Positions 4,431-44,966 of a stretch of 64,000 nt of DNA are shown one piece after another. The notes beneath the pieces are model-generated. The model was not told the DNA's origin. It made no database searches and was given only the letters and a program-made list of their open reading frames with translations. Both the position numbers and the translations under genes were made by a program. Source of the DNA: Nannobrachium achirus (lineage: Eukaryota; Chordata; Actinopteri; Myctophiformes; Myctophidae); NCBI GenBank assembly GCA_963921795.1, contig OY997659.1:26419708-26483707 (forward strand). Direction: 5' to 3'. Position 1 is the first letter of the stretch; each line of letters opens with the position of its first letter.

Positions 4431-4472
4431 GAATGTCAACATTGCATGGCTGGAGAGGAGCCCATGATGTCT

Positions 4473-5301: not shown

Positions 5302-5894
5302 TGTACAAAAGTTTCATATTGGTCACCAACACTCCCCCTGGCACATCACTGACTTGGCTCCACCCATTCTCTCACCTGCACTGATTCACCACACCTGCAC
5401 CCACTCAGCCCTAATCAGTTACCTGGTGACTATATATACTGCCCCAATGCTCAGTCACTCAGTTTCCTTTTGGCAGCAGCAACAACACTCATGGAGAGCC
5501 CTGTCCTGGAAGAGCCTTGCCCTTGTTTATGGTCAATGAAGTGAGTTCAATGTTTGTCTATATGACTTGTACTGTTTGCCTAATGCCTATATGACTTGAA
5601 AGGTTTACCTGAATGTAGCCTTGGCTTATGGTTTTCACCTTGAGTTGTAACATTGTATTTATGTGTAGTCCTTATGCCTTAGAGTATTGACCTTGTGTTG
5701 CTATTTGTGTGTATTTACTGTAACTATGTTCTCTTCATTTACTGTATGTTCTTTTTATCTATTTTATAGAATAAAACCATTAACTTTATAAATCACAACC
5801 ACCTGGAACTCTTCTTCTTCGCACTCTGACCGGTGCAGCCAAGGCAGTGTTGAAACCAGACTCAAAACCTGGAAAGATCCTACCCTTTCTAACA
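5302..5894 (+). repeat. 3' LTR of the non-autonomous element
   Basis: Same length and, by eye, same sequence as the 5' LTR, at an offset of exactly 1481 bp. It is preceded by the G-rich tract and followed by the ATGAC duplication. Confidence 0.93.
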
Positions 5895-10775: not shown

Positions 10776-11847
10776 CCAAGGCACAAGAGAGCAAAGACAG
10801 TGTTGCCAACTCGGGCATTTATTGAACAGTTCTTATTTTACAACAGCATTGTAATGCAACGTAGCATGAATGAACAACATAAATGTGAATAACTGAAATT
10901 GTCTTTTAATAAATCAACACAAGGTTTTCCCGGGACGGGGCTGTCGTTTCTCCTCTTCGTGGGGCGGCCAGGGGGGGGGTAGGTAAGAGTTACTTTAAAG
11001 GGGTTTCCCTCCACAGGAAACAGGCGAGTATAATTCCATTGTATAGTCTCTCTTCCCCACCGGCGCTAGGTGAGTATAGTTCCTCTCTACAGGTGACAGG
11101 TAAAGTATTTCTTTCCCATAGGTAATAGGTGAGTATAGTTCTTTTCCACAGGTGACAGGTAATAGGTGAGTAGGTGCCCGCTCTTACACAAATCCGTCTA
11201 ATTCTCTATCTTCTAAATAAAATGAACACGGGGTATAATGGGCCTGGGGCCAGAGAATTTCCGGATACTAGTAAGGTTTTAAGGGAAGTGAGATATACTC
11301 AACAAAATAGGAATAGGGGTGGCTCGCTGGGGGTCCGGAAGGTAAGGCTGTGGTCTCCTTTTCCAGGTCCTTCTCCTCAGCTCGCCGAGTACACACTCTC
11401 CAGTGATAGGTACACACTCCACAGTGAGTCAGGTTTGCGCTCCTCATTGATCCAGGTACACACTCCTCAGTGTCAGTCCGCTCCCAGTCCATGCCTAGAA
11501 GTAATGAGTAGAAGGAACATTACTATAATGCACTTTACACAGTAACATGCGGTGGAGAGGGAAATATGGTGGCTCTTACCGCCTGTCTGCCCATGATCAG
11601 CTTGTCAGAGACTCCCAGCACAGACTGAAGGGGAGAGCGAGCTCAGTACTTATGCACCCCTGTGTTGGGTGGGGCCCACAGGTGCATACGCTTGTGCCTG
11701 ATGAAGCGTGTGGGCCGGCAGGTAACGCCCGTCAATCACTTGGCCCACACAGTGTGTTGGTCTGCTAGGGCTCGCTCTCCCATCCAGGGTGCGCTTCTTT
11801 GACATGCAGGGCCTACCTGGCGGGCGGTGTCCGAACGAACCACCACA
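10776..11847 (-). repeat. LTR 1 of the array (leftmost; outer 3' LTR)
   Basis: The right edge (minus-strand start TGTGGTGGTTCG) is at 11847, directly against the polypurine tract. By comparison with LTR 2, identity on the left begins at 10776 (CCAAGGCAC). A canonical TG boundary would instead be at 10801. A minus-strand AATAAA lies at 10818-10823, with a GU-rich stretch beyond it that favours the longer LTR. Inside are three copies of a CACACTC..CAGTG motif (11390-11482) and a run of AGGTGAGTA-type repeats (11065-11175). The pol frame ends inside the LTR at 11650. Confidence 0.88.
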
Positions 11848-14800
11848 CATCCCCCCCCTTAAGCTTGCTACTGGTTCGCAAACTTGCCGCTCTTCCTCAT
11901 AGAGCCTGGACAGGGCATCGGCATGGGGAATATCCTTCCCTGGTTTATGCTCCACCTCAAAGTTGTAATCCTGCAACTCCAGAAACCAACGTGTTATTCT
12001 CTTATTAGTGTCCTTACTTTTAGCCATCCATTTCAATGGTGCGTGGTCCGTTATGAGAGTGAAACGCCTTCCCCACAAATAATAGCGTAGGTGGTGTACG
12101 GCCCACTTAATAGCAAGAGCCTCTTTCTCTATCGTTGCATAATTAAGTTCATGCTTTAAGAGCTTTCTGCTAATGAAGACTATTGGGTGCTCTTCGTCAT
12201 CAATGACTTGCGAGAGCACGGCCCCGAGGCCTGTGTTCGAGGCGTCGGTGTGGAGTAGAAAATTCTTACCGAAGTCCGGGGTTTTTAGGACCGGCTCATC
12301 GCAGAGCTTCAGTTTGAGGCCTCGGAACACGGCCTCGGTCTCCTCTGTCCAGCGCAGCATATTGGGCCGACTTTGTCGGGTCATCTCGTACAAGGGAGCT
12401 GCAAGGGTAGCATAGTTATTTATGAACTTGTTATAGTAGGACATGATTCCCAAGAATGACTTTAACTGCTTCTTGCTGACGGGTTTGGGCCATTCGCGTA
12501 TACGCTCCACTTTGCGTAATTGGGGTTTTACGCACCCGCGCCCAATAGTGAAACCCAAATATTCGGCCTCATACAGACCTATTCGGCACTTCTTGGCGTT
12601 GGCGGTCAGACCCGCTCGTCGGAGAGCTCCCAGGACTGCTTCGATGTGATGGAGGTGATTCTCCCAGGTGCTGCTGTGGATCACAATGTCATCTAAATAT
12701 GCGGCGGCATAGAGATGATGGGGCCTTAATACTCGGTCCATGAGTCTCTGAAATGTTGCGGGGGCACCGTGTACCCCGAACGGTAAGACAGTATATTGGA
12801 ACAGCCCTTCAGGGGTAGAGAAGGCTGTTTTCTCTTTGGTTTCTTTTGTAAGGGGCACTTGCCAATAGCCTTTTGTCAAATCGAGGGTGCTTACAAATCG
12901 AGCGGGGCCCAGCCGCTCGATTAATTCATCTACCCGGGGCATGGGGTAAGCATCAAAATTTGAAATCTCATTTAATTTACGGAAATCATTGCAGAACCGG
13001 ATTGTGCCGTCCGGCTTGGGGACCAGCACAATGGGACTCGACCAGGCACTGTGTGACTCCTCTATAATTCCCAGTTGTAGCATATTTGTTACCTCCTCTT
13101 TTACAGCTCCTCGCCGGGCCTCTGGGATACGGTACGGACGTTGTCTCACTATTTTCCCCGGGGTTGTTTGGATGTCGTGCGCAATAGCGTGGGTACGGCC
13201 CGGCAGTTCTGAGAACCGGTCCGCATTCCTACTCAGAAGCTCACGTATATCTTGCGCCTGAGCTGGGGACAGTTCCTCTCCAATAGGGACTGGAGGCGGG
13301 TTCTGAGAGGAGAGAGTGGTTAGTAGGGCCGGGAGAGCGACAGGAGGCACAACGTGCCACTTTTTCAGCAGATTAATATGGTAAATTTGCATAGTTTTCC
13401 GCCGCCCTATTTGGCGCACGCGGTAGTTGACCGGGCCCAGTTTCTCCATAATTTCGTATGGCCCTTGCCATTTTGCGAGAAATTTACATTCGCTCGTGGG
13501 AATGAGCACCAGCACTTTTTCGCCCACCTCAAAGCTCCGCAGCGTGGCGCCTCGGTTGTACACCCTGCACTGGGCGCGCTGCGCTTGTTCCATGTGTTCA
13601 CGAACGAGCGGCCAGATCTTCTTGGCTCTCTCCCCTTCACATAGGTTCCCATCAATCGCGCTGACGTTCCTCCGAGCATTTTCCAGGTTCGGATCGTTCC
13701 ACTGTTGTGTGGCGAAGTCCCCTCTGAGCGGAGAGCTCTCATCCTCCTCTTCGGGGAAGTCAGGCCACGCCACCGGCTCTGGCTCTTCTGACGAGGTGCC
13801 CCGCGGCGCTTCCTCCGCCTCGGGTGCATCTCCCTGCAGCTCCTCGTCTGGAGAGGGTTCGCTCTCTGGTCCCTCTGAGTCGGCGCGGAAGATCGGGCAC
13901 GCGGGCAATGAGTTCCTCCAACGGGGGCCCGGCCGGATCTTTCTTCTTCGCCGCGGCCGCGGCGGTCCTCTGCCCCCCGGGTTCCAATGTCTCTCAAACA
14001 GCACACAGTCCGTGCCGATGAGCAGTGGGACCGGTAGGTTAGGTACAATTCCAGCTTCCACTTCGACATCTCCTTTGGTGGATTGGACGCGTATCAGCGT
14101 CGTTGGGTAGGAGCGCACATCCCCATGCACACAGCTGACCGGCATACGGCTGGAGGTGGGACGCCCGGCATGCTCAGCGTGTACCAGCGTGACGACGCTC
14201 CCCGAGTCGAGAAGAGCCTGGGTGTCCACTCCGTCAATTCTCACCGGCAGGTTGGAGTGGCGCCGCCGCTGGCTCCCGGAGTGAAGGCAGGGGCGTCGGC
14301 CGTCGGAGGCGGCGGTGGCGGATGGCATGGATACGTCCCGGTCTCGGTCCGGGCAGGACCATGCGATATGATCCGCTTTCCCGCAGACGTAGCACCGGCG
14401 TGATGTCTGCGGTTGGCTTCGGGCAGTCCGCTCTGTGGCGGCTCGTCTCGTAGTAGTAGGCGACAGGGGAGTAGCCGGAGGCCGCGAGCGGTCCCGGTTG
14501 TAACGTGCCTCCCCCGTCCCTCTGGGAATCTCTGACTTTGTGCTTCTCATCATCTCTGTACTCACTTGGTGATTTTCCAGGAGCGCAACCAGGGCCTCCA
14601 CGGAATTTGGGCTCACCTGTGAGGCATAGCGGCGGGCATCAGGCGGCAGGGAACGTATACATTTGTCTATGACAATTCTCTCAATCAGTGGCGGGTCACC
14701 GGCCGTAGTCAGCCACCCATGAGTTAGGCGGAGGAGAGCGGCTATTTGGGGCCGAGGCGGCAGCGCCGCTTGCATGTTCCACCCATGGAAGCGCTGGGCT

Positions 14801-15156
14801 CGGGCCGGCATACTATAACCTTGACTAGCCAAGATAGCTGCTTTCAGGCGCCTATATTCACGGGCCTCTGCCAGGGGTAGGTCACGGCACACACGTTGGG
14901 CTTCTCCTGAGAGGAAAGGAGCGATGATGCTGCCCCAGTCGGGGACGGGCCATCGTTCCCGGGCAGCGGTGCGCTCGAACACCTCCAGGAAGGCTTCAAT
15001 ATCATCATCGGGGGACAGTTTCGTTAACACTTCTCCAGGCGAACGTGTGGGATTAACGTTTTGGTCAATTTGGATTTTCTCTATTAATTTAGTCACCGCT
15101 TGCTGTAATTCGGCCTGGCTCTGTAACAGAGCGTCTAGGGCCGGTGTGGTTGTCAT
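11650..15156 (-). CDS. gag-pol polyprotein of the Gmr1-type element, copy 1, lacking the integrase core
   Basis: A single frame of 1168 residues starts at an ATG just after the leader. Residues about 48-200 form a SCAN-like retroviral capsid. The nucleocapsid knuckle is C255-X2-C-X4-H-X4-C268. The protease has D-S-G at 317-319 and a later L-L-I-G-T (378-382). Residues 425-475 are an acidic linker. Residues about 507-601 match only the C-terminal integrase region, with the GPY motif at 565-567. Reverse transcriptase covers about 650-890 with Y-L-D-D at 820-823. RNase H follows with D971, E1012, D1037 and D1080. Integrase before RT is the Gmr1 order. The HHCC finger and D,D-35-E core that should precede residue 507 are absent without loss of frame. 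Residues 1104-1168 are encoded by the LTR. RT and RNase H look intact, but integration would need integrase from elsewhere. Confidence 0.93.
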   Translation of the reverse strand: MTTTPALDALLQSQAELQQAVTKLIEKIQIDQNVNPTRSPGEVLTKLSPDDDIEAFLEVFERTAARERWPVPDWGSIIAPFLSGEAQRVCRDLPLAEAREYRRLKAAILASQGYSMPARAQRFHGWNMQAALPPRPQIAALLRLTHGWLTTAGDPPLIERIVIDKCIRSLPPDARRYASQVSPNSVEALVALLENHQVSTEMMRSTKSEIPRGTGEARYNRDRSRPPATPLSPTTTRRAATERTARSQPQTSRRCYVCGKADHIAWSCPDRDRDVSMPSATAASDGRRPCLHSGSQRRRHSNLPVRIDGVDTQALLDSGSVVTLVHAEHAGRPTSSRMPVSCVHGDVRSYPTTLIRVQSTKGDVEVEAGIVPNLPVPLLIGTDCVLFERHWNPGGRGPPRPRRRRKIRPGPRWRNSLPACPIFRADSEGPESEPSPDEELQGDAPEAEEAPRGTSSEEPEPVAWPDFPEEEDESSPLRGDFATQQWNDPNLENARRNVSAIDGNLCEGERAKKIWPLVREHMEQAQRAQCRVYNRGATLRSFEVGEKVLVLIPTSECKFLAKWQGPYEIMEKLGPVNYRVRQIGRRKTMQIYHINLLKKWHVVPPVALPALLTTLSSQNPPPVPIGEELSPAQAQDIRELLSRNADRFSELPGRTHAIAHDIQTTPGKIVRQRPYRIPEARRGAVKEEVTNMLQLGIIEESHSAWSSPIVLVPKPDGTIRFCNDFRKLNEISNFDAYPMPRVDELIERLGPARFVSTLDLTKGYWQVPLTKETKEKTAFSTPEGLFQYTVLPFGVHGAPATFQRLMDRVLRPHHLYAAAYLDDIVIHSSTWENHLHHIEAVLGALRRAGLTANAKKCRIGLYEAEYLGFTIGRGCVKPQLRKVERIREWPKPVSKKQLKSFLGIMSYYNKFINNYATLAAPLYEMTRQSRPNMLRWTEETEAVFRGLKLKLCDEPVLKTPDFGKNFLLHTDASNTGLGAVLSQVIDDEEHPIVFISRKLLKHELNYATIEKEALAIKWAVHHLRYYLWGRRFTLITDHAPLKWMAKSKDTNKRITRWFLELQDYNFEVEHKPGKDIPHADALSRLYEEERQVCEPVASLRGGMCGGSFGHRPPGRPCMSKKRTLDGRASPSRPTHCVGQVIDGRYLPAHTLHQAQAYAPVGPTQHRGA
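11848..11860 (-). other. polypurine tract of copy 1
   Basis: On the minus strand AAGGGGGGGGATG directly precedes the LTR start TGTGGTGG; it would prime plus-strand DNA synthesis. It is also read as codons of the pol frame. The equivalent site recurs every 4444 bp, the last at 29624-29636. Confidence 0.85.
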
Positions 15157-15171
15157 ATTGCGTCTAGGTGA

Positions 15172-15219
15172 GGTTCAGTACCCGTATTCTGCACACCATG
15201 TGTGGAGACTGAACCCAAA
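15172..15219 (-). promoter_or_regulatory. leader hairpin at the expected primer-binding position (copy 1)
   Basis: Between the gag ATG and the LTR, GGTTCAGT (15172-15179) pairs perfectly with ACTGAACC (15208-15215). An inner stem CACAC/GTGTG (15192-15196 with 15200-15204) has a 3-nt loop. I found no 18-nt complement to a vertebrate tRNA that I could recognise here. The hairpin repeats in each unit. Confidence 0.6.
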
Positions 15220-16291
15220 CCAAGGCACAAGAGAGCAAAGACAGTGTTGCCAACTCGGGCATTTATTGAACAGTTCTTATTTTACAACAGCATTGTAATG
15301 CAACGTAGCATGAATGAACAACATAAATGTGAATAACTGAAATTGTCTTTTAATAAATCAACACAAGGTTTTCCCGGGACGGGGCTGTCGTTTCTCCTCT
15401 TCGTGGGGCGGCCAGGGGGGGGGTAGGTAAGAGTTACTTTAAAGGGGTTTCCCTCCACAGGAAACAGGCGAGTATAATTCCATTGTATAGTCTCTCTTCC
15501 CCACCGGCGCTAGGTGAGTATAGTTCCTCTCTACAGGTGACAGGTAAAGTATTTCTTTCCCATAGGTAATAGGTGAGTATAGTTCTTTTCCACAGGTGAC
15601 AGGTAATAGGTGAGTAGGTGCCCGCTCTTACACAAATCCGTCTAATTCTCTATCTTCTAAATAAAATGAACACGGGGTATAATGGGCCTGGGGCCAGAGA
15701 ATTTCCGGATACTAGTAAGGTTTTAAGGGAAGTGAGATATACTCAACAAAATAGGAATAGGGGTGGCTCGCTGGGGGTCCGGAAGGTAAGGCTGTGGTCT
15801 CCTTTTCCAGGTCCTTCTCCTCAGCTCGCCGAGTACACACTCTCCAGTGATAGGTACACACTCCACAGTGAGTCAGGTTTGCGCTCCTCATTGATCCAGG
15901 TACACACTCCTCAGTGTCAGTCCGCTCCCAGTCCATGCCTAGAAGTAATGAGTAGAAGGAACATTACTATAATGCACTTTACACAGTAACATGCGGTGGA
16001 GAGGGAAATATGGTGGCTCTTACCGCCTGTCTGCCCATGATCAGCTTGTCAGAGACTCCCAGCACAGACTGAAGGGGAGAGCGAGCTCAGTACTTATGCA
16101 CCCCTGTGTTGGGTGGGGCCCACAGGTGCATACGCTTGTGCCTGATGAAGCGTGTGGGCCGGCAGGTAACGCCCGTCAATCACTTGGCCCACACAGTGTG
16201 TTGGTCTGCTAGGGCTCGCTCTCCCATCCAGGGTGCGCTTCTTTGACATGCAGGGCCTACCTGGCGGGCGGTGTCCGAACGAACCACCACA
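15220..16291 (-). repeat. LTR 2 of the array
   Basis: The first internal shared LTR, acting as the 5' LTR of copy 1 and the 3' LTR of copy 2. Its landmarks match LTR 1 at an offset of 4444 bp. Its left edge joins the copy 1 leader. Confidence 0.9.
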
Positions 16292-19200
16292 CATCCCCCC
16301 CCTTAAGCTTGCTACTGGTTCGCAAACTTGCCGCTCTTCCTCATAGAGCCTGGACAGGGCATCGGCATGGGGAATATCCTTCCCTGGTTTATGCTCCACC
16401 TCAAAGTTGTAATCCTGCAACTCCAGAAACCAACGTGTTATTCTCTTATTAGTGTCCTTACTTTTAGCCATCCATTTCAATGGTGCGTGGTCCGTTATGA
16501 GAGTGAAACGCCTTCCCCACAAATAATAGCGTAGGTGGTGTACGGCCCACTTAATAGCAAGAGCCTCTTTCTCTATCGTTGCATAATTAAGTTCATGCTT
16601 TAAGAGCTTTCTGCTAATGAAGACTATTGGGTGCTCTTCGTCATCAATGACTTGCGAGAGCACGGCCCCGAGGCCTGTGTTCGAGGCGTCGGTGTGGAGT
16701 AGAAAATTCTTACCGAAGTCCGGGGTTTTTAGGACCGGCTCATCGCAGAGCTTCAGTTTGAGGCCTCGGAACACGGCCTCGGTCTCCTCTGTCCAGCGCA
16801 GCATATTGGGCCGACTTTGTCGGGTCATCTCGTACAAGGGAGCTGCAAGGGTAGCATAGTTATTTATGAACTTGTTATAGTAGGACATGATTCCCAAGAA
16901 TGACTTTAACTGCTTCTTGCTGACGGGTTTGGGCCATTCGCGTATACGCTCCACTTTGCGTAATTGGGGTTTTACGCACCCGCGCCCAATAGTGAAACCC
17001 AAATATTCGGCCTCATACAGACCTATTCGGCACTTCTTGGCGTTGGCGGTCAGACCCGCTCGTCGGAGAGCTCCCAGGACTGCTTCGATGTGATGGAGGT
17101 GATTCTCCCAGGTGCTGCTGTGGATCACAATGTCATCTAAATATGCGGCGGCATAGAGATGATGGGGCCTTAATACTCGGTCCATGAGTCTCTGAAATGT
17201 TGCGGGGGCACCGTGTACCCCGAACGGTAAGACAGTATATTGGAACAGCCCTTCAGGGGTAGAGAAGGCTGTTTTCTCTTTGGTTTCTTTTGTAAGGGGC
17301 ACTTGCCAATAGCCTTTTGTCAAATCGAGGGTGCTTACAAATCGAGCGGGGCCCAGCCGCTCGATTAATTCATCTACCCGGGGCATGGGGTAAGCATCAA
17401 AATTTGAAATCTCATTTAATTTACGGAAATCATTGCAGAACCGGATTGTGCCGTCCGGCTTGGGGACCAGCACAATGGGACTCGACCAGGCACTGTGTGA
17501 CTCCTCTATAATTCCCAGTTGTAGCATATTTGTTACCTCCTCTTTTACAGCTCCTCGCCGGGCCTCTGGGATACGGTACGGACGTTGTCTCACTATTTTC
17601 CCCGGGGTTGTTTGGATGTCGTGCGCAATAGCGTGGGTACGGCCCGGCAGTTCTGAGAACCGGTCCGCATTCCTACTCAGAAGCTCACGTATATCTTGCG
17701 CCTGAGCTGGGGACAGTTCCTCTCCAATAGGGACTGGAGGCGGGTTCTGAGAGGAGAGAGTGGTTAGTAGGGCCGGGAGAGCGACAGGAGGCACAACGTG
17801 CCACTTTTTCAGCAGATTAATATGGTAAATTTGCATAGTTTTCCGCCGCCCTATTTGGCGCACGCGGTAGTTGACCGGGCCCAGTTTCTCCATAATTTCG
17901 TATGGCCCTTGCCATTTTGCGAGAAATTTACATTCGCTCGTGGGAATGAGCACCAGCACTTTTTCGCCCACCTCAAAGCTCCGCAGCGTGGCGCCTCGGT
18001 TGTACACCCTGCACTGGGCGCGCTGCGCTTGTTCCATGTGTTCACGAACGAGCGGCCAGATCTTCTTGGCTCTCTCCCCTTCACATAGGTTCCCATCAAT
18101 CGCGCTGACGTTCCTCCGAGCATTTTCCAGGTTCGGATCGTTCCACTGTTGTGTGGCGAAGTCCCCTCTGAGCGGAGAGCTCTCATCCTCCTCTTCGGGG
18201 AAGTCAGGCCACGCCACCGGCTCTGGCTCTTCTGACGAGGTGCCCCGCGGCGCTTCCTCCGCCTCGGGTGCATCTCCCTGCAGCTCCTCGTCTGGAGAGG
18301 GTTCGCTCTCTGGTCCCTCTGAGTCGGCGCGGAAGATCGGGCACGCGGGCAATGAGTTCCTCCAACGGGGGCCCGGCCGGATCTTTCTTCTTCGCCGCGG
18401 CCGCGGCGGTCCTCTGCCCCCCGGGTTCCAATGTCTCTCAAACAGCACACAGTCCGTGCCGATGAGCAGTGGGACCGGTAGGTTAGGTACAATTCCAGCT
18501 TCCACTTCGACATCTCCTTTGGTGGATTGGACGCGTATCAGCGTCGTTGGGTAGGAGCGCACATCCCCATGCACACAGCTGACCGGCATACGGCTGGAGG
18601 TGGGACGCCCGGCATGCTCAGCGTGTACCAGCGTGACGACGCTCCCCGAGTCGAGAAGAGCCTGGGTGTCCACTCCGTCAATTCTCACCGGCAGGTTGGA
18701 GTGGCGCCGCCGCTGGCTCCCGGAGTGAAGGCAGGGGCGTCGGCCGTCGGAGGCGGCGGTGGCGGATGGCATGGATACGTCCCGGTCTCGGTCCGGGCAG
18801 GACCATGCGATATGATCCGCTTTCCCGCAGACGTAGCACCGGCGTGATGTCTGCGGTTGGCTTCGGGCAGTCCGCTCTGTGGCGGCTCGTCTCGTAGTAG
18901 TAGGCGACAGGGGAGTAGCCGGAGGCCGCGAGCGGTCCCGGTTGTAACGTGCCTCCCCCGTCCCTCTGGGAATCTCTGACTTTGTGCTTCTCATCATCTC
19001 TGTACTCACTTGGTGATTTTCCAGGAGCGCAACCAGGGCCTCCACGGAATTTGGGCTCACCTGTGAGGCATAGCGGCGGGCATCAGGCGGCAGGGAACGT
19101 ATACATTTGTCTATGACAATTCTCTCAATCAGTGGCGGGTCACCGGCCGTAGTCAGCCACCCATGAGTTAGGCGGAGGAGAGCGGCTATTTGGGGCCGAG

Positions 19201-19600
19201 GCGGCAGCGCCGCTTGCATGTTCCACCCATGGAAGCGCTGGGCTCGGGCCGGCATACTATAACCTTGACTAGCCAAGATAGCTGCTTTCAGGCGCCTATA
19301 TTCACGGGCCTCTGCCAGGGGTAGGTCACGGCACACACGTTGGGCTTCTCCTGAGAGGAAAGGAGCGATGATGCTGCCCCAGTCGGGGACGGGCCATCGT
19401 TCCCGGGCAGCGGTGCGCTCGAACACCTCCAGGAAGGCTTCAATATCATCATCGGGGGACAGTTTCGTTAACACTTCTCCAGGCGAACGTGTGGGATTAA
19501 CGTTTTGGTCAATTTGGATTTTCTCTATTAATTTAGTCACCGCTTGCTGTAATTCGGCCTGGCTCTGTAACAGAGCGTCTAGGGCCGGTGTGGTTGTCAT
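16094..19600 (-). CDS. gag-pol polyprotein, copy 2
   Basis: The predicted 1168-residue protein is identical to copy 1, including the missing integrase core and the tail read from LTR 2. No frameshift or stop has accumulated, so it was copied or homogenised very recently. Antisense open frames at the same place are by-products of GC-rich codons. Confidence 0.92.
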   Translation of the reverse strand: MTTTPALDALLQSQAELQQAVTKLIEKIQIDQNVNPTRSPGEVLTKLSPDDDIEAFLEVFERTAARERWPVPDWGSIIAPFLSGEAQRVCRDLPLAEAREYRRLKAAILASQGYSMPARAQRFHGWNMQAALPPRPQIAALLRLTHGWLTTAGDPPLIERIVIDKCIRSLPPDARRYASQVSPNSVEALVALLENHQVSTEMMRSTKSEIPRGTGEARYNRDRSRPPATPLSPTTTRRAATERTARSQPQTSRRCYVCGKADHIAWSCPDRDRDVSMPSATAASDGRRPCLHSGSQRRRHSNLPVRIDGVDTQALLDSGSVVTLVHAEHAGRPTSSRMPVSCVHGDVRSYPTTLIRVQSTKGDVEVEAGIVPNLPVPLLIGTDCVLFERHWNPGGRGPPRPRRRRKIRPGPRWRNSLPACPIFRADSEGPESEPSPDEELQGDAPEAEEAPRGTSSEEPEPVAWPDFPEEEDESSPLRGDFATQQWNDPNLENARRNVSAIDGNLCEGERAKKIWPLVREHMEQAQRAQCRVYNRGATLRSFEVGEKVLVLIPTSECKFLAKWQGPYEIMEKLGPVNYRVRQIGRRKTMQIYHINLLKKWHVVPPVALPALLTTLSSQNPPPVPIGEELSPAQAQDIRELLSRNADRFSELPGRTHAIAHDIQTTPGKIVRQRPYRIPEARRGAVKEEVTNMLQLGIIEESHSAWSSPIVLVPKPDGTIRFCNDFRKLNEISNFDAYPMPRVDELIERLGPARFVSTLDLTKGYWQVPLTKETKEKTAFSTPEGLFQYTVLPFGVHGAPATFQRLMDRVLRPHHLYAAAYLDDIVIHSSTWENHLHHIEAVLGALRRAGLTANAKKCRIGLYEAEYLGFTIGRGCVKPQLRKVERIREWPKPVSKKQLKSFLGIMSYYNKFINNYATLAAPLYEMTRQSRPNMLRWTEETEAVFRGLKLKLCDEPVLKTPDFGKNFLLHTDASNTGLGAVLSQVIDDEEHPIVFISRKLLKHELNYATIEKEALAIKWAVHHLRYYLWGRRFTLITDHAPLKWMAKSKDTNKRITRWFLELQDYNFEVEHKPGKDIPHADALSRLYEEERQVCEPVASLRGGMCGGSFGHRPPGRPCMSKKRTLDGRASPSRPTHCVGQVIDGRYLPAHTLHQAQAYAPVGPTQHRGA

Positions 19601-19663
19601 ATTGCGTCTAGGTGAGGTTCAGTACCCGTATTCTGCACACCATGTGTGGAGACTGAACCCAAA

Positions 19664-20735
19664 CCAAGGCACAAGAGAGCAAAGACAGTGTTGCCAACTC
19701 GGGCATTTATTGAACAGTTCTTATTTTACAACAGCATTGTAATGCAACGTAGCATGAATGAACAACATAAATGTGAATAACTGAAATTGTCTTTTAATAA
19801 ATCAACACAAGGTTTTCCCGGGACGGGGCTGTCGTTTCTCCTCTTCGTGGGGCGGCCAGGGGGGGGGTAGGTAAGAGTTACTTTAAAGGGGTTTCCCTCC
19901 ACAGGAAACAGGCGAGTATAATTCCATTGTATAGTCTCTCTTCCCCACCGGCGCTAGGTGAGTATAGTTCCTCTCTACAGGTGACAGGTAAAGTATTTCT
20001 TTCCCATAGGTAATAGGTGAGTATAGTTCTTTTCCACAGGTGACAGGTAATAGGTGAGTAGGTGCCCGCTCTTACACAAATCCGTCTAATTCTCTATCTT
20101 CTAAATAAAATGAACACGGGGTATAATGGGCCTGGGGCCAGAGAATTTCCGGATACTAGTAAGGTTTTAAGGGAAGTGAGATATACTCAACAAAATAGGA
20201 ATAGGGGTGGCTCGCTGGGGGTCCGGAAGGTAAGGCTGTGGTCTCCTTTTCCAGGTCCTTCTCCTCAGCTCGCCGAGTACACACTCTCCAGTGATAGGTA
20301 CACACTCCACAGTGAGTCAGGTTTGCGCTCCTCATTGATCCAGGTACACACTCCTCAGTGTCAGTCCGCTCCCAGTCCATGCCTAGAAGTAATGAGTAGA
20401 AGGAACATTACTATAATGCACTTTACACAGTAACATGCGGTGGAGAGGGAAATATGGTGGCTCTTACCGCCTGTCTGCCCATGATCAGCTTGTCAGAGAC
20501 TCCCAGCACAGACTGAAGGGGAGAGCGAGCTCAGTACTTATGCACCCCTGTGTTGGGTGGGGCCCACAGGTGCATACGCTTGTGCCTGATGAAGCGTGTG
20601 GGCCGGCAGGTAACGCCCGTCAATCACTTGGCCCACACAGTGTGTTGGTCTGCTAGGGCTCGCTCTCCCATCCAGGGTGCGCTTCTTTGACATGCAGGGC
20701 CTACCTGGCGGGCGGTGTCCGAACGAACCACCACA
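19664..20735 (-). repeat. LTR 3 of the array
   Basis: The internal shared LTR between copies 2 and 3. The minus-strand poly(A) signal is at about 19706-19711. No difference from LTR 2 was seen. Confidence 0.9.
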
Positions 20736-24044: not shown

Positions 24045-24107
24045 ATTGCGTCTAGGTGAGGTTCAGTACCCGTATTCTGCACACCATGTGTGGAGACTGA
24101 ACCCAAA

Positions 24108-25179: not shown

Positions 25180-28100
25180 CATCCCCCCCCTTAAGCTTGC
25201 TACTGGTTCGCAAACTTGCCGCTCTTCCTCATAGAGCCTGGACAGGGCATCGGCATGGGGAATATCCTTCCCTGGTTTATGCTCCACCTCAAAGTTGTAA
25301 TCCTGCAACTCCAGAAACCAACGTGTTATTCTCTTATTAGTGTCCTTACTTTTAGCCATCCATTTCAATGGTGCGTGGTCCGTTATGAGAGTGAAACGCC
25401 TTCCCCACAAATAATAGCGTAGGTGGTGTACGGCCCACTTAATAGCAAGAGCCTCTTTCTCTATCGTTGCATAATTAAGTTCATGCTTTAAGAGCTTTCT
25501 GCTAATGAAGACTATTGGGTGCTCTTCGTCATCAATGACTTGCGAGAGCACGGCCCCGAGGCCTGTGTTCGAGGCGTCGGTGTGGAGTAGAAAATTCTTA
25601 CCGAAGTCCGGGGTTTTTAGGACCGGCTCATCGCAGAGCTTCAGTTTGAGGCCTCGGAACACGGCCTCGGTCTCCTCTGTCCAGCGCAGCATATTGGGCC
25701 GACTTTGTCGGGTCATCTCGTACAAGGGAGCTGCAAGGGTAGCATAGTTATTTATGAACTTGTTATAGTAGGACATGATTCCCAAGAATGACTTTAACTG
25801 CTTCTTGCTGACGGGTTTGGGCCATTCGCGTATACGCTCCACTTTGCGTAATTGGGGTTTTACGCACCCGCGCCCAATAGTGAAACCCAAATATTCGGCC
25901 TCATACAGACCTATTCGGCACTTCTTGGCGTTGGCGGTCAGACCCGCTCGTCGGAGAGCTCCCAGGACTGCTTCGATGTGATGGAGGTGATTCTCCCAGG
26001 TGCTGCTGTGGATCACAATGTCATCTAAATATGCGGCGGCATAGAGATGATGGGGCCTTAATACTCGGTCCATGAGTCTCTGAAATGTTGCGGGGGCACC
26101 GTGTACCCCGAACGGTAAGACAGTATATTGGAACAGCCCTTCAGGGGTAGAGAAGGCTGTTTTCTCTTTGGTTTCTTTTGTAAGGGGCACTTGCCAATAG
26201 CCTTTTGTCAAATCGAGGGTGCTTACAAATCGAGCGGGGCCCAGCCGCTCGATTAATTCATCTACCCGGGGCATGGGGTAAGCATCAAAATTTGAAATCT
26301 CATTTAATTTACGGAAATCATTGCAGAACCGGATTGTGCCGTCCGGCTTGGGGACCAGCACAATGGGACTCGACCAGGCACTGTGTGACTCCTCTATAAT
26401 TCCCAGTTGTAGCATATTTGTTACCTCCTCTTTTACAGCTCCTCGCCGGGCCTCTGGGATACGGTACGGACGTTGTCTCACTATTTTCCCCGGGGTTGTT
26501 TGGATGTCGTGCGCAATAGCGTGGGTACGGCCCGGCAGTTCTGAGAACCGGTCCGCATTCCTACTCAGAAGCTCACGTATATCTTGCGCCTGAGCTGGGG
26601 ACAGTTCCTCTCCAATAGGGACTGGAGGCGGGTTCTGAGAGGAGAGAGTGGTTAGTAGGGCCGGGAGAGCGACAGGAGGCACAACGTGCCACTTTTTCAG
26701 CAGATTAATATGGTAAATTTGCATAGTTTTCCGCCGCCCTATTTGGCGCACGCGGTAGTTGACCGGGCCCAGTTTCTCCATAATTTCGTATGGCCCTTGC
26801 CATTTTGCGAGAAATTTACATTCGCTCGTGGGAATGAGCACCAGCACTTTTTCGCCCACCTCAAAGCTCCGCAGCGTGGCGCCTCGGTTGTACACCCTGC
26901 ACTGGGCGCGCTGCGCTTGTTCCATGTGTTCACGAACGAGCGGCCAGATCTTCTTGGCTCTCTCCCCTTCACATAGGTTCCCATCAATCGCGCTGACGTT
27001 CCTCCGAGCATTTTCCAGGTTCGGATCGTTCCACTGTTGTGTGGCGAAGTCCCCTCTGAGCGGAGAGCTCTCATCCTCCTCTTCGGGGAAGTCAGGCCAC
27101 GCCACCGGCTCTGGCTCTTCTGACGAGGTGCCCCGCGGCGCTTCCTCCGCCTCGGGTGCATCTCCCTGCAGCTCCTCGTCTGGAGAGGGTTCGCTCTCTG
27201 GTCCCTCTGAGTCGGCGCGGAAGATCGGGCACGCGGGCAATGAGTTCCTCCAACGGGGGCCCGGCCGGATCTTTCTTCTTCGCCGCGGCCGCGGCGGTCC
27301 TCTGCCCCCCGGGTTCCAATGTCTCTCAAACAGCACACAGTCCGTGCCGATGAGCAGTGGGACCGGTAGGTTAGGTACAATTCCAGCTTCCACTTCGACA
27401 TCTCCTTTGGTGGATTGGACGCGTATCAGCGTCGTTGGGTAGGAGCGCACATCCCCATGCACACAGCTGACCGGCATACGGCTGGAGGTGGGACGCCCGG
27501 CATGCTCAGCGTGTACCAGCGTGACGACGCTCCCCGAGTCGAGAAGAGCCTGGGTGTCCACTCCGTCAATTCTCACCGGCAGGTTGGAGTGGCGCCGCCG
27601 CTGGCTCCCGGAGTGAAGGCAGGGGCGTCGGCCGTCGGAGGCGGCGGTGGCGGATGGCATGGATACGTCCCGGTCTCGGTCCGGGCAGGACCATGCGATA
27701 TGATCCGCTTTCCCGCAGACGTAGCACCGGCGTGATGTCTGCGGTTGGCTTCGGGCAGTCCGCTCTGTGGCGGCTCGTCTCGTAGTAGTAGGCGACAGGG
27801 GAGTAGCCGGAGGCCGCGAGCGGTCCCGGTTGTAACGTGCCTCCCCCGTCCCTCTGGGAATCTCTGACTTTGTGCTTCTCATCATCTCTGTACTCACTTG
27901 GTGATTTTCCAGGAGCGCAACCAGGGCCTCCACGGAATTTGGGCTCACCTGTGAGGCATAGCGGCGGGCATCAGGCGGCAGGGAACGTATACATTTGTCT
28001 ATGACAATTCTCTCAATCAGTGGCGGGTCACCGGCCGTAGTCAGCCACCCATGAGTTAGGCGGAGGAGAGCGGCTATTTGGGGCCGAGGCGGCAGCGCCG

Positions 28101-28488
28101 CTTGCATGTTCCACCCATGGAAGCGCTGGGCTCGGGCCGGCATACTATAACCTTGACTAGCCAAGATAGCTGCTTTCAGGCGCCTATATTCACGGGCCTC
28201 TGCCAGGGGTAGGTCACGGCACACACGTTGGGCTTCTCCTGAGAGGAAAGGAGCGATGATGCTGCCCCAGTCGGGGACGGGCCATCGTTCCCGGGCAGCG
28301 GTGCGCTCGAACACCTCCAGGAAGGCTTCAATATCATCATCGGGGGACAGTTTCGTTAACACTTCTCCAGGCGAACGTGTGGGATTAACGTTTTGGTCAA
28401 TTTGGATTTTCTCTATTAATTTAGTCACCGCTTGCTGTAATTCGGCCTGGCTCTGTAACAGAGCGTCTAGGGCCGGTGTGGTTGTCAT
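24982..28488 (-). CDS. gag-pol polyprotein, copy 4
   Basis: Same 1168-residue product as copies 1-3. It lies next to the one variant unit (copy 5), so the boundary between variant and non-variant units falls between 28488 and 29968. Confidence 0.92.
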   Translation of the reverse strand: MTTTPALDALLQSQAELQQAVTKLIEKIQIDQNVNPTRSPGEVLTKLSPDDDIEAFLEVFERTAARERWPVPDWGSIIAPFLSGEAQRVCRDLPLAEAREYRRLKAAILASQGYSMPARAQRFHGWNMQAALPPRPQIAALLRLTHGWLTTAGDPPLIERIVIDKCIRSLPPDARRYASQVSPNSVEALVALLENHQVSTEMMRSTKSEIPRGTGEARYNRDRSRPPATPLSPTTTRRAATERTARSQPQTSRRCYVCGKADHIAWSCPDRDRDVSMPSATAASDGRRPCLHSGSQRRRHSNLPVRIDGVDTQALLDSGSVVTLVHAEHAGRPTSSRMPVSCVHGDVRSYPTTLIRVQSTKGDVEVEAGIVPNLPVPLLIGTDCVLFERHWNPGGRGPPRPRRRRKIRPGPRWRNSLPACPIFRADSEGPESEPSPDEELQGDAPEAEEAPRGTSSEEPEPVAWPDFPEEEDESSPLRGDFATQQWNDPNLENARRNVSAIDGNLCEGERAKKIWPLVREHMEQAQRAQCRVYNRGATLRSFEVGEKVLVLIPTSECKFLAKWQGPYEIMEKLGPVNYRVRQIGRRKTMQIYHINLLKKWHVVPPVALPALLTTLSSQNPPPVPIGEELSPAQAQDIRELLSRNADRFSELPGRTHAIAHDIQTTPGKIVRQRPYRIPEARRGAVKEEVTNMLQLGIIEESHSAWSSPIVLVPKPDGTIRFCNDFRKLNEISNFDAYPMPRVDELIERLGPARFVSTLDLTKGYWQVPLTKETKEKTAFSTPEGLFQYTVLPFGVHGAPATFQRLMDRVLRPHHLYAAAYLDDIVIHSSTWENHLHHIEAVLGALRRAGLTANAKKCRIGLYEAEYLGFTIGRGCVKPQLRKVERIREWPKPVSKKQLKSFLGIMSYYNKFINNYATLAAPLYEMTRQSRPNMLRWTEETEAVFRGLKLKLCDEPVLKTPDFGKNFLLHTDASNTGLGAVLSQVIDDEEHPIVFISRKLLKHELNYATIEKEALAIKWAVHHLRYYLWGRRFTLITDHAPLKWMAKSKDTNKRITRWFLELQDYNFEVEHKPGKDIPHADALSRLYEEERQVCEPVASLRGGMCGGSFGHRPPGRPCMSKKRTLDGRASPSRPTHCVGQVIDGRYLPAHTLHQAQAYAPVGPTQHRGA

Positions 28489-28551
28489 ATTGCGTCTAGG
28501 TGAGGTTCAGTACCCGTATTCTGCACACCATGTGTGGAGACTGAACCCAAA

Positions 28552-29623
28552 CCAAGGCACAAGAGAGCAAAGACAGTGTTGCCAACTCGGGCATTTATTG
28601 AACAGTTCTTATTTTACAACAGCATTGTAATGCAACGTAGCATGAATGAACAACATAAATGTGAATAACTGAAATTGTCTTTTAATAAATCAACACAAGG
28701 TTTTCCCGGGACGGGGCTGTCGTTTCTCCTCTTCGTGGGGCGGCCAGGGGGGGGGTAGGTAAGAGTTACTTTAAAGGGGTTTCCCTCCACAGGAAACAGG
28801 CGAGTATAATTCCATTGTATAGTCTCTCTTCCCCACCGGCGCTAGGTGAGTATAGTTCCTCTCTACAGGTGACAGGTAAAGTATTTCTTTCCCATAGGTA
28901 ATAGGTGAGTATAGTTCTTTTCCACAGGTGACAGGTAATAGGTGAGTAGGTGCCCGCTCTTACACAAATCCGTCTAATTCTCTATCTTCTAAATAAAATG
29001 AACACGGGGTATAATGGGCCTGGGGCCAGAGAATTTCCGGATACTAGTAAGGTTTTAAGGGAAGTGAGATATACTCAACAAAATAGGAATAGGGGTGGCT
29101 CGCTGGGGGTCCGGAAGGTAAGGCTGTGGTCTCCTTTTCCAGGTCCTTCTCCTCAGCTCGCCGAGTACACACTCTCCAGTGATAGGTACACACTCCACAG
29201 TGAGTCAGGTTTGCGCTCCTCATTGATCCAGGTACACACTCCTCAGTGTCAGTCCGCTCCCAGTCCATGCCTAGAAGTAATGAGTAGAAGGAACATTACT
29301 ATAATGCACTTTACACAGTAACATGCGGTGGAGAGGGAAATATGGTGGCTCTTACCGCCTGTCTGCCCATGATCAGCTTGTCAGAGACTCCCAGCACAGA
29401 CTGAAGGGGAGAGCGAGCTCAGTACTTATGCACCCCTGTGTTGGGTGGGGCCCACAGGTGCATACGCTTGTGCCTGATGAAGCGTGTGGGCCGGCAGGTA
29501 ACGCCCGTCAATCACTTGGCCCACACAGTGTGTTGGTCTGCTAGGGCTCGCTCTCCCATCCAGGGTGCGCTTCTTTGACATGCAGGGCCTACCTGGCGGG
29601 CGGTGTCCGAACGAACCACCACA
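28552..29623 (-). repeat. LTR 5 of the array
   Basis: The internal shared LTR between copies 4 and 5. Its right edge at 29623 abuts the polypurine tract of copy 5. Confidence 0.9.
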
Positions 29624-32600
29624 CATCCCCCCCCTTAAGCTTGCTACTGGTTCGCAAACTTGCCGCTCTTCCTCATAGAGCCTGGACAGGGCATCGGCAT
29701 GGGGAATATCCTTCCCTGGTTTATGCTCCACCTCAAAGTTGTAATCCTGCAACTCCAGAAACCAACGTGTTATTCTCTTATTAGTGTCCTTACTTTTAGC
29801 CATCCATTTCAATGGTGCGTGGTCCGTTATGAGAGTGAAACGCCTTCCCCACAAATAATAGCGTAGGTGGTGTACGGCCCACTTAATAGCAAGAGCCTCT
29901 TTCTCTATCGTTGCATAATTAAGTTCATGCTTTAAGAGCTTTCTGCTAATGAAGACTATTGGGTGATCTTCGTCATCAATGACTTGCGAGAGCACGGCCC
30001 CGAGGCCTGTGTTCGAGGCGTCGGTGTGGAGTAGAAAATTCTTACCGAAGTCCGGGGTTTTTAGGACCGGCTCATCGCAGAGCTTCAGTTTGAGGCCTCG
30101 GAACACGGCCTCGGTCTCCTCTGTCCAGCGCAGCATATTGGGCCGACTTTGTCGGGTCATCTCGTACAAGGGAGCTGCAAGGGTAGCATAGTTATTTATG
30201 AACTTGTTATAGTAGGACATGATTCCCAAGAATGACTTTAACTGCTTCTTGCTGACGGGTTTGGGCCATTCGCGTATACGCTCCACTTTGCGTAATTGGG
30301 GTTTTACGCACCCGCGCCCAATAGTGAAACCCAAATATTCGGCCTCATACAGACCTATTCGGCACTTCTTGGCGTTGGCGGTCAGACCCGCTCGTCGGAG
30401 AGCTCCCAGGACTGCTTCGATGTGATGGAGGTGATTCTCCCAGGTGCTGCTGTGGATCACAATGTCATCTAAATATGCGGCGGCATAGAGATGATGGGGC
30501 CTTAATACTCGGTCCATGAGTCTCTGAAATGTTGCGGGGGCACCGTGTACCCCGAACGGTAAGACAGTATATTGGAACAGCCCTTCAGGGGTAGAGAAGG
30601 CTGTTTTCTCTTTGGTTTCTTTTGTAAGGGGCACTTGCCAATAGCCTTTTGTCAAATCGAGGGTGCTTACAAATCGAGCGGGGCCCAGCCGCTCGATTAA
30701 TTCATCTACCCGGGGCATGGGGTAAGCATCAAAATTTGAAATCTCATTTAATTTACGGAAATCATTGCAGAACCGGATTGTGCCGTCCGGCTTGGGGACC
30801 AGCACAATGGGACTCGACCAGGCACTGTGTGACTCCTCTATAATTCCCAGTTGTAGCATATTTGTTACCTCCTCTTTTACAGCTCCTCGCCGGGCCTCTG
30901 GGATACGGTACGGACGTTGTCTCACTATTTTCCCCGGGGTTGTTTGGATGTCGTGCGCAATAGCGTGGGTACGGCCCGGCAGTTCTGAGAACCGGTCCGC
31001 ATTCCTACTCAGAAGCTCACGTATATCTTGCGCCTGAGCTGGGGACAGTTCCTCTCCAATAGGGACTGGAGGCGGGTTCTGAGAGGAGAGAGTGGTTAGT
31101 AGGGCCGGGAGAGCGACAGGAGGCACAACGTGCCACTTTTTCAGCAGATTAATATGGTAAATTTGCATAGTTTTCCGCCGCCCTATTTGGCGCACGCGGT
31201 AGTTGACCGGGCCCAGTTTCTCCATAATTTCGTATGGCCCTTGCCATTTTGCGAGAAATTTACATTCGCTCGTGGGAATGAGCACCAGCACTTTTTCGCC
31301 CACCTCAAAGCTCCGCAGCGTGGCGCCTCGGTTGTACACCCTGCACTGGGCGCGCTGCGCTTGTTCCATGTGTTCACGAACGAGCGGCCAGATCTTCTTG
31401 GCTCTCTCCCCTTCACATAGGTTCCCATCAATCGCGCTGACGTTCCTCCGAGCATTTTCCAGGTTCGGATCGTTCCACTGTTGTGTGGCGAAGTCCCCTC
31501 TGAGCGGAGAGCTCTCATCCTCCTCTTCGGGGAAGTCAGGCCACGCCACCGGCTCTGGCTCTTCTGACGAGGTGCCCCGCGGCGCTTCCTCCGCCTCGGG
31601 TGCATCTCCCTGCAGCTCCTCGTCTGGAGAGGGTTCGCTCTCTGGTCCCTCTGAGTCGGCGCGGAAGATCGGGCACGCGGGCAATGAGTTCCTCCAACGG
31701 GGGCCCGGCCGGATCTTTCTTCTTCGCCGCGGCCGCGGCGGTCCTCTGCCCCCCGGGTTCCAATGTCTCTCAAACAGCACACAGTCCGTGCCGATGAGCA
31801 GTGGGACCGGTAGGTTAGGTACAATTCCAGCTTCCACTTCGACATCTCCTTTGGTGGATTGGACGCGTATCAGCGTCGTTGGGTAGGAGCGCACATCCCC
31901 ATGCACACAGCTGACCGGCATACGGCTGGAGGTGGGACGCCCGGCATGCTCAGCGTGTACCAGCGTGACGACGCTCCCCGAGTCGAGAAGAGCCTGGGTG
32001 TCCACTCCGTCAATTCTCACCGGCAGGTTGGAGTGGCGCCGCCGCTGGCTCCCGGAGTGAAGGCAGGGGCGTCGGCCGTCGGAGGCGGCGGTGGCGGATG
32101 GCATGGATACGTCCCGGTCTCGGTCCGGGCAGGACCATGCGATATGATCCGCTTTCCCGCAGACGTAGCACCGGCGTGATGTCTGCGGTTGGCTTCGGGC
32201 AGTCCGCTCTGTGGCGGCTCGTCTCGTAGTAGTAGGCGACAGGGGAGTAGCCGGAGGCCGCGAGCGGTCCCGGTTGTAACGTGCCTCCCCCGTCCCTCTG
32301 GGAATCTCTGACTTTGTGCTTCTCATCATCTCTGTACTCACTTGGTGATTTTCCAGGAGCGCAACCAGGGCCTCCACGGAATTTGGGCTCACCTGTGAGG
32401 CATAGCGGCGGGCATCAGGCGGCAGGGAACGTATACATTTGTCTATGACAATTCTCTCAATCAGTGGCGGGTCACCGGCCGTAGTCAGCCACCCATGAGT
32501 TAGGCGGAGGAGAGCGGCTATTTGGGGCCGAGGCGGCAGCGCCGCTTGCATGTTCCACCCATGGAAGCGCTGGGCTCGGGCCGGCATACTATAACCTTGA

Positions 32601-32932
32601 CTAGCCAAGATAGCTGCTTTCAGGCGCCTATATTCACGGGCCTCTGCCAGGGGTAGGTCACGGCACACACGTTGGGCTTCTCCTGAGAGGAAAGGAGCGA
32701 TGATGCTGCCCCAGTCGGGGACGGGCCATCGTTCCCGGGCAGCGGTGCGCTCGAACACCTCCAGGAAGGCTTCAATATCATCATCGGGGGACAGTTTCGT
32801 TAACACTTCTCCAGGCGAACGTGTGGGATTAACGTTTTGGTCAATTTGGATTTTCTCTATTAATTTAGTCACCGCTTGCTGTAATTCGGCCTGGCTCTGT
32901 AACAGAGCGTCTAGGGCCGGTGTGGTTGTCAT
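29426..32932 (-). CDS. gag-pol polyprotein, copy 5, with one RNase H substitution
   Basis: This is the rightmost and, in element orientation, the first unit. Plus-strand base 29966 is A where the other copies have C, changing codon 989 from Glu to Asp in an acidic loop (D-D-E-E-H to D-D-E-D-H) 18 residues after RNase H D971. It is the only amino-acid difference among the five copies. The substitution is conservative and not in a catalytic residue. The integrase-core gap is the same. Confidence 0.92.
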   Translation of the reverse strand: MTTTPALDALLQSQAELQQAVTKLIEKIQIDQNVNPTRSPGEVLTKLSPDDDIEAFLEVFERTAARERWPVPDWGSIIAPFLSGEAQRVCRDLPLAEAREYRRLKAAILASQGYSMPARAQRFHGWNMQAALPPRPQIAALLRLTHGWLTTAGDPPLIERIVIDKCIRSLPPDARRYASQVSPNSVEALVALLENHQVSTEMMRSTKSEIPRGTGEARYNRDRSRPPATPLSPTTTRRAATERTARSQPQTSRRCYVCGKADHIAWSCPDRDRDVSMPSATAASDGRRPCLHSGSQRRRHSNLPVRIDGVDTQALLDSGSVVTLVHAEHAGRPTSSRMPVSCVHGDVRSYPTTLIRVQSTKGDVEVEAGIVPNLPVPLLIGTDCVLFERHWNPGGRGPPRPRRRRKIRPGPRWRNSLPACPIFRADSEGPESEPSPDEELQGDAPEAEEAPRGTSSEEPEPVAWPDFPEEEDESSPLRGDFATQQWNDPNLENARRNVSAIDGNLCEGERAKKIWPLVREHMEQAQRAQCRVYNRGATLRSFEVGEKVLVLIPTSECKFLAKWQGPYEIMEKLGPVNYRVRQIGRRKTMQIYHINLLKKWHVVPPVALPALLTTLSSQNPPPVPIGEELSPAQAQDIRELLSRNADRFSELPGRTHAIAHDIQTTPGKIVRQRPYRIPEARRGAVKEEVTNMLQLGIIEESHSAWSSPIVLVPKPDGTIRFCNDFRKLNEISNFDAYPMPRVDELIERLGPARFVSTLDLTKGYWQVPLTKETKEKTAFSTPEGLFQYTVLPFGVHGAPATFQRLMDRVLRPHHLYAAAYLDDIVIHSSTWENHLHHIEAVLGALRRAGLTANAKKCRIGLYEAEYLGFTIGRGCVKPQLRKVERIREWPKPVSKKQLKSFLGIMSYYNKFINNYATLAAPLYEMTRQSRPNMLRWTEETEAVFRGLKLKLCDEPVLKTPDFGKNFLLHTDASNTGLGAVLSQVIDDEDHPIVFISRKLLKHELNYATIEKEALAIKWAVHHLRYYLWGRRFTLITDHAPLKWMAKSKDTNKRITRWFLELQDYNFEVEHKPGKDIPHADALSRLYEEERQVCEPVASLRGGMCGGSFGHRPPGRPCMSKKRTLDGRASPSRPTHCVGQVIDGRYLPAHTLHQAQAYAPVGPTQHRGA

Positions 32933-32995
32933 ATTGCGTCTAGGTGAGGTTCAGTACCCGTATTCTGCACACCATGTGTGGAGACTGAACCCAAA

Positions 32996-34067
32996 CCAAG
33001 GCACAAGAGAGCAAAGACAGTGTTGCCAACTCGGGCATTTATTGAACAGTTCTTATTTTACAACAGCATTGTAATGCAACGTAGCATGAATGAACAACAT
33101 AAATGTGAATAACTGAAATTGTCTTTTAATAAATCAACACAAGGTTTTCCCGGGACGGGGCTGTCGTTTCTCCTCTTCGTGGGGCGGCCAGGGGGGGGGT
33201 AGGTAAGAGTTACTTTAAAGGGGTTTCCCTCCACAGGAAACAGGCGAGTATAATTCCATTGTATAGTCTCTCTTCCCCACCGGCGCTAGGTGAGTATAGT
33301 TCCTCTCTACAGGTGACAGGTAAAGTATTTCTTTCCCATAGGTAATAGGTGAGTATAGTTCTTTTCCACAGGTGACAGGTAATAGGTGAGTAGGTGCCCG
33401 CTCTTACACAAATCCGTCTAATTCTCTATCTTCTAAATAAAATGAACACGGGGTATAATGGGCCTGGGGCCAGAGAATTTCCGGATACTAGTAAGGTTTT
33501 AAGGGAAGTGAGATATACTCAACAAAATAGGAATAGGGGTGGCTCGCTGGGGGTCCGGAAGGTAAGGCTGTGGTCTCCTTTTCCAGGTCCTTCTCCTCAG
33601 CTCGCCGAGTACACACTCTCCAGTGATAGGTACACACTCCACAGTGAGTCAGGTTTGCGCTCCTCATTGATCCAGGTACACACTCCTCAGTGTCAGTCCG
33701 CTCCCAGTCCATGCCTAGAAGTAATGAGTAGAAGGAACATTACTATAATGCACTTTACACAGTAACATGCGGTGGAGAGGGAAATATGGTGGCTCTTACC
33801 GCCTGTCTGCCCATGATCAGCTTGTCAGAGACTCCCAGCACAGACTGAAGGGGAGAGCGAGCTCAGTACTTATGCACCCCTGTGTTGGGTGGGGCCCACA
33901 GGTGCATACGCTTGTGCCTGATGAAGCGTGTGGGCCGGCAGGTAACGCCCGTCAATCACTTGGCCCACACAGTGTGTTGGTCTGCTAGGGCTCGCTCTCC
34001 CATCCAGGGTGCGCTTCTTTGACATGCAGGGCCTACCTGGCGGGCGGTGTCCGAACGAACCACCACA
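32996..34067 (-). repeat. LTR 6 of the array (rightmost; outer 5' LTR and presumed promoter)
   Basis: Ends at 34067 with the canonical minus-strand TGTGGTGG and then joins unrelated sequence (ATGATTTC). Transcription of the array would start in this LTR and run leftward. Without an internal unit to its right it contains only the tail of the pol frame, with no start. Confidence 0.9.

Positions 34068-42919: not shown

Positions 42920-43019
<100 letters not shown>

Positions 43020-44726: not shown

Positions 44727-44728
<2 letters not shown>

Positions 44729-44798: not shown

Positions 44799-44801
<3 letters not shown>

Positions 44802-44963: not shown

Positions 44964-44966
<3 letters not shown>

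Follow-up and report, generated by a model that had tools for sequence, protein, structure and literature searches.

A five-unit tandem array of integrase-less LTR retrotransposons in Nannobrachium achirus that likely descend from spliced RNA

A 64,000-nucleotide stretch of the Nannobrachium achirus genome (assembly GCA_963921795.1, contig OY997659.1, positions 26,419,708 to 26,483,707; hereafter the window) carries a head-to-tail array of five long terminal repeat (LTR) retrotransposon units that share single LTRs and are without the integrase core. When the array was compared with full copies of the element in the same genome, 876 bp, or 292 codons covering the integrase zinc finger and DDE core, were found to be absent in frame. 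On the sense strand, which is the minus strand of the window, the missing piece begins with GTGAGT and ends with ACAG. Judged from these boundaries, the source of the array copies was likely a spliced RNA, turned back into DNA. The absent integrase, the splice-like ends of the gap, a clipped outer LTR and a missing target site duplication (TSD) all go beyond an earlier note on this DNA, which had described the repeat structure.

That description, of five interiors and six LTRs in head-to-tail order at a 4444-bp period over positions 10776-34067, was borne out when the window was compared with itself, and the reading of the units as LTR retrotransposons with shared single LTRs was right. The period is exact, internal regions alternate with single LTRs, and an LTR stands at both ends, which is the arrangement of a tandem LTR retrotransposon. 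Base by base, the six LTRs show no difference over 1072 bp and only one position varies across all five units (29966, A in unit 5 and C in the other four). At this position C is found in every one of the 14 distinct bases from other family copies (12 loci plus the two units of a two-unit array), and by this comparison A is the derived state. A chance or simple satellite is ruled out, as the units are retrotransposon frames. The window sits on a 55.6-Mb contig of the 1.66-Gb genome, and the unit count was taken from the assembly.

In each unit frame the Pfam domains run in the order SCAN-like gag, aspartyl protease, integrase C-terminal domain (residues 565-599), reverse transcriptase (RT, residues 712-871) and RNase H, so that integrase precedes RT. 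The gag and protease matches are weak and below their curated cut-offs (SCAN, PF02023, has an E-value of 3.7e-4 and 20.7 bits against a cut-off of 27), and several relatives carry SCAN. The 1168-aa frame gave no Pfam match to the integrase zinc finger (H2C2) or DDE core (rve), and with 292 codons absent the units do not have the integrase catalytic core of an autonomous element. The ten best-scoring public relatives, about 1440-1460 aa long and with integrase domains listed, share 71-73% identity with the array protein across 55-56% of its length; named relatives are mainly from fish, with some from frogs. Alignment with nine relatives left one clean gap in the array unit, the core falling between protease and RT, and one of the nine (P0019) is itself without part of the core. 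Full-length relatives have the order protease, integrase, RT, RNase H (PR-IN-RT-RH). By its predicted domains the array element is a Ty3/gypsy LTR retrotransposon with a Gmr1-type domain order, and on that order it is provisionally labelled Gmr1-type. A PR-IN-RT-type order was reportedly described for Gmr1-like elements by Goodwin and Poulter in 2002, and SCAN is said, in a reviewer's remark, to be derived from a Gmr1-like gag. The full copies resemble the Gmr1-like elements of vertebrates in placing protease, integrase and RT in this succession and possibly in a SCAN-like gag, whereas the array units are without the integrase core. Of 54 pattern matches in viral contigs, none was a relative.

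The boundaries of the missing piece are shared by the full copies. All 17 fetched units that hold both sites read GAAGGG/GTGAGTGAATTAAT at the donor and AACAATTACAG/GAGAGAG at the acceptor, and the piece between the sites is 876 nt in 16 of them and 857 nt in the remaining one, a full-length copy with a broken frame (L011, C4:42252875-42259641). Donor-like and acceptor-like sequences lie exactly at the ends of the missing piece, as in a retro-copy of spliced RNA. By an approximate splice-site scoring, the donor comes second among the 185 GTs of the interior of the full-length copy L009, and the joint chance of such splice-like ends for a random deletion is about 9e-5. The sequence TTGAC, which we take to be a branch-like motif, lies about 20 nt upstream of the acceptor. 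Two fetched copies are altered close to this site: in an 18th unit (L021, C1:54894365-54899535) the donor is kept and a large deletion has taken out the acceptor side and RT, and L018 (C8:6679437-6687346) has an internal duplication beside the putative acceptor, reaching from the integrase C-terminal part into RT. In other species, 120 of 539 protein matches were listed and in 24 of these an aligned segment spanned residues 495-530, most such segments belonging to integrase-carrying proteins and beginning at residue 480; no GAAGGG/GAGAGAG joint was seen among the 24, which were not each inspected. A carp protein (P0088) is without integrase, but its boundaries differ from those of the array.

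The integrase-less form is not confined to the array, an idea ruled out by five other loci. A genome search with the joint sequence, in which 40 of 146 candidates were scored, gave ten full-span matches: five in the array and one each on contigs C5, C11, C17, C18 and C72. The remaining 30 agree with just one side of the joint, which is the pattern of full copies, and the 13 of these that were fetched proved to be 12 full-length units and L021. Twenty-six bases round the joint are identical in all five array units and the five dispersed copies. Those on C5, C11, C17 and C18 have the usual structure of two LTRs and are flanked by TSDs (CTAC, CAAC, ATAT and ATAA, respectively), so that a TSD is present in all four testable dispersed copies, and their longest frames are 1176, 1148, 1174 and 1176 codons. 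The C72 copy has a 1174-codon frame and runs off its small contig; between its frame and that of the array there are 13 nonsynonymous and 8 synonymous differences, the expected nonsynonymous fraction being 0.76, a comparison that says little about selection on integrase-less frames. The C17 and C18 copies (L039 and L040) carry a longer LTR variant of about 1.21 kb that is 87% identical to the array LTR.

Trees were built from the parts before (UP) and after (DOWN) the joint, using six integrase-less and 15 full rows, two of the latter (L027 and L028) being the identical units of a single array. The integrase-less copies require 5 and 6 changes on the two trees, against shuffled-label means of 5.5 and 5.3, and a single integrase-less clade is rejected on both (p = 3.0e-5 and 2.8e-5). 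No internal-region base is fixed in and specific to the integrase-less copies, and on both sides of the joint L009 and L010, both full-length, are the copies nearest to the array unit. On these data, recurrent splicing is the simplest explanation for the occurrence of one and the same joint on different backgrounds. The array itself is set apart by five private substitutions common to all of its units; a candidate sixth, at 13631, proved to be an alignment artefact at the junction and the five stand. These shared substitutions, together with the single internal difference, point to one integrase-less founder that multiplied locally.

Other family copies supply the background against which the array can be read. 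In a genome LTR search 40 of 284 candidates were scored, representing 19 loci beside the array, all of which were fetched, some partly; counts from the genome searches are lower bounds. In 12 copies the family LTR is 1088-1092 bp long with ends TGTGG...CCACA, which shows the leftmost array LTR to be short by 19 bp. LTR pairs differ by 0-3 bases in all 12 ordinary copies and are identical in six; by this measure the family is young. The near-zero divergence stressed in the earlier note is real. However, because the family is young and its LTR pairs are often identical, the internal identity of the array is not in itself remarkable, and it is weaker evidence of special homogenisation than had been proposed. 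A full-length two-unit array (L027 and L028, C1:7185250-7196983) likewise shows 0 mismatches, and has three LTRs and a 4-bp TSD, ATAT, which indicates that the family forms arrays, including one with a normal integration footprint. Predicted frames of 1463-1468 codons are intact in 10 of 14 units, a set that included L021 and the two units of the C1 array, and on this evidence full-length helper copies exist in the same genome.

A 4-bp TSD was found at all 20 other loci for which both ends were available, namely 14 single copies (one with a large deletion), one solo LTR, the two-unit array and four integrase-less copies, and all 20 have complete outer ends. Three loci with one end wanting (C72, C14:33193365 and C18:54483751) were left out of this count. 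No TSD encloses the array, the bases at its ends being TCCT and ATGA. Shifting the LTR ends did not yield one either: when 38 x 26 pairs of ends were scanned, the only matches were the overlapping CACA, CACAA and ACAA, as expected by chance (an estimate). The sequence ATGA also occurs at 10761-10764, 11 bp from the left junction, and is identical to the tetranucleotide that follows the array on its right; ATGA is present in 11% of 25-bp stretches of the window. It could be a relic TSD whose LTR end has been replaced, or a chance match.

Taking these observations together, we think it reasonably probable that the units descend from spliced RNA and that the array grew locally by homologous recombination between LTRs, not by five separate insertions. 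In this scheme the integrase region would be spliced out of some element RNA, the spliced RNA would occasionally be packaged and reverse-transcribed, and integrase from full-length copies would insert the integrase-less cDNA elsewhere in trans. Further units would then be added to the founder by unequal LTR-LTR exchange between sisters or homologues. The absent TSD and clipped outer LTR suggest that no clean integrase reaction took place when the founding DNA entered, or when it was reworked afterwards. With 10 of 14 units having intact frames, integrase-plus units would probably be present had a resident LTR captured the general cDNA pool. Both LTR-LTR exchange and concatemeric cDNA, which were among the routes listed in the earlier note, remain candidates. 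Our best guess is exchange, as slightly the likelier, although a one-step concatemer fits nearly as well.

Several observations weigh against this scheme. The acceptor is mediocre, ranking 27 of 279 AGs in the L009 internal region by an ad hoc score, and the residues encoded at the donor and acceptor are only partly kept in relatives (VS in 45 of 102, LQ in 26 of 118). Splicing itself is inferred here from DNA sequence. The branches of the two trees are mostly weakly supported, and the UP and DOWN topologies disagree, which makes recombination within the family likely. Ordinary LTR exchange in a normally inserted copy should retain the TSD, as at the 20 counted loci, so that either a later end deletion or another entry route is needed; the absent TSD and clipped LTR would otherwise favour a one-step concatemer. 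Finally, the assembler could have changed the count of five units.

The best-placed alternative, though we consider it unlikely, dispenses with integrase altogether. cDNA from spliced RNA, unable to integrate, would recombine through its LTRs to form a circle or concatemer and be end-joined at a chromosome break, giving five units at once and covering the absent TSD, the clipped outer LTR and the identity of the units in a single event. In yeast, tandem arrays are reported to form independently of integrase (PMC11899658), and recombination of Ty1 cDNA is reported as well (PMC7055915). On the other hand, the TSDs of the four testable dispersed integrase-less copies indicate that integrase is available in trans, there is no sign of several units having been captured at once, and the two-unit array on C1 has a TSD. 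A bolder reading is one in which the integrase core is an in-frame alternative intron that yields two polyproteins, with spliced RNA repeatedly packaged and copied into an integrase-free satellite lineage inserted in trans, and in which the array came from an LTR-recombined concatemer that entered without integrase, as a natural vertebrate counterpart of integrase-blocked Ty1; we consider this, too, unlikely.

It is possible, but in our view doubtful, that the integrase-less form is a single old chance deletion spread among backgrounds by template switching, its splice-like ends being coincidental. All six loci have the same joint, and the disagreement between the trees means that recombination occurs. 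However, such ends have a chance of about 1e-4, no internal base is specific to integrase-less copies, and the array unit is closest to the same full-length copies on both sides. Least probable of all is an assembly artefact, in which an LTR loop in the assembly graph was walked several times: near-zero divergence and the absent TSD are what such a loop or a false join of two loci would give, but the unit with the unique base adjoins the right flank, identical repeats are generally collapsed more often than expanded, a 19-bp clip is not expected from misjoining two intact copies when the 20 counted loci have complete outer ends, and the window contains no N bases.

Arrays with shared LTRs are already known from plants, yeast and kangaroos, and what appears to be new here is an apparent splicing-out of integrase that leaves genomic copies. 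Such arrays are reported as common in plants, where their mechanism is open, and the same source cites kangaroo centromeres, TRIMs, Drosophila and integrase-independent yeast arrays (PMC11899658). Plant tandem LTR retrotransposons (IDENTAM, PMC11899658) likewise alternate single shared LTRs with internal regions, are highly identical and are mostly gypsy, whereas the present case is in an animal genome, with five units and with neither integrase core nor TSD; of 28 clear arrays in rice, 10 are enclosed by a perfect TSD (PMC11899658). Ty1 arrays in yeast are also head-to-tail, share LTRs and form without integrase (PMC11899658), whereas in the present array integrase was lost naturally and between apparent splice sites, and integrase independence would have only indirect backing, from the absent TSD and clipped end. 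Cassandra/TRIM arrays also consist of LTRs and internal domains (PMC7215508), but Cassandra is non-coding and each unit here has a 1168-aa frame. In the LTR elements copia, BARE and CRR, coding sequence is alternatively spliced, with the loss of most of pol, of 104 nt at gag, or of rt, in contrast to the integrase core alone, in frame; spliced BARE copies were not amplifiable from barley DNA, whereas the spliced-looking copies here are genomic (PMC3735527). Young Gmr1 elements are described in pufferfish (PMC11117352), and the word "tandem" is absent from the excerpt of a zebrafish endogenous retrovirus paper (PMC8672886). Among the matches listed from the open-licence literature there was no report of splicing-out of integrase or of arrays of such copies.

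By one account, retrotransposons must exclude spliced RNA from packaging, copying and integration (PMC3735527). If our reading is true, spliced genomic copies of an LTR element that arose several times and were inserted in trans would reveal a leak in that barrier, and would explain simply how non-autonomous families originate while offering a means of setting integrase dose. The array would also allow growth by LTR recombination to be traced across haplotypes in an animal, and in a recent case.

Coordinates of the array and of its right flank are collected in Table 1, in which we take TGGTGTGCAGAATACGGG to serve in primer binding and TTAAGGGGGGGGATG to be the polypurine tract.

Table 1. Features of the array and its right flank, in window coordinates
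Feature	Position	Strand	Basis
Tandem array, 5 units of 4444 bp and 6 LTRs	10776..34067	-	self-comparison of window
Outermost LTR (sense 3' end), 1072 bp, without last 19 bp of family LTR; abuts single-copy flank, no TSD	10776..11847	-	
Second LTR, complete, 1091 bp	15201..16291	-	
Third, fourth and fifth LTRs, 1091 bp each	19645-20735, 24089-25179, 28533-29623	-	
Sixth LTR (sense 5' end of array), 1091 bp, terminus complete, then ATGA	32977..34067	-	
1168-aa open frame, unit 1	11650..15156	-	
1168-aa open frame, unit 2	16094..19600	-	
1168-aa open frames, units 3-5	20538-24044, 24982-28488, 29426-32932	-	
Junction, site of absent 876 bp; putative exon-exon joint	13632..13633, other units +4444	-	
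Probable primer binding site, sense TGGTGTGCAGAATACGGG, 2 nt after LTR	15181..15198	-	sequence
Polypurine tract adjoining LTR, sense TTAAGGGGGGGGATG	11848..11862	-	sequence
Sole base differing between units (A unit 5, C elsewhere)	29966..29966	.	
Right flank, 92% match over 477 bp on contig C72	34074..34546	.	

The left flank of the array is single-copy (one candidate in a genome search). The right flank is a repeat, given its second genomic match, and holds a 15-mer, TTGCATGTTCCACCC, that is also found in an array unit at 14770-14784. Elsewhere in the window, no tRNA genes or Rfam families were found. A short LTR element on the plus strand (3821-5894) has two 593-bp LTRs that are 100% identical, a TSD of ATGAC on both sides, a sequence resembling a primer binding site (TGGTCCTTCGACGCCG) and an internal 33-bp minisatellite (4503-5105); it contains no frame of at least 140 codons and, from these features, is probably very young and non-autonomous. 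A 538-codon frame on the minus strand (49085-50701) carries a reverse transcriptase domain (Pfam RVT_1) and is probably a long interspersed nuclear element. Four long perfect dinucleotide repeats (CA, TG, GT and AG) lie within 2.5 kb at 42921-45424.

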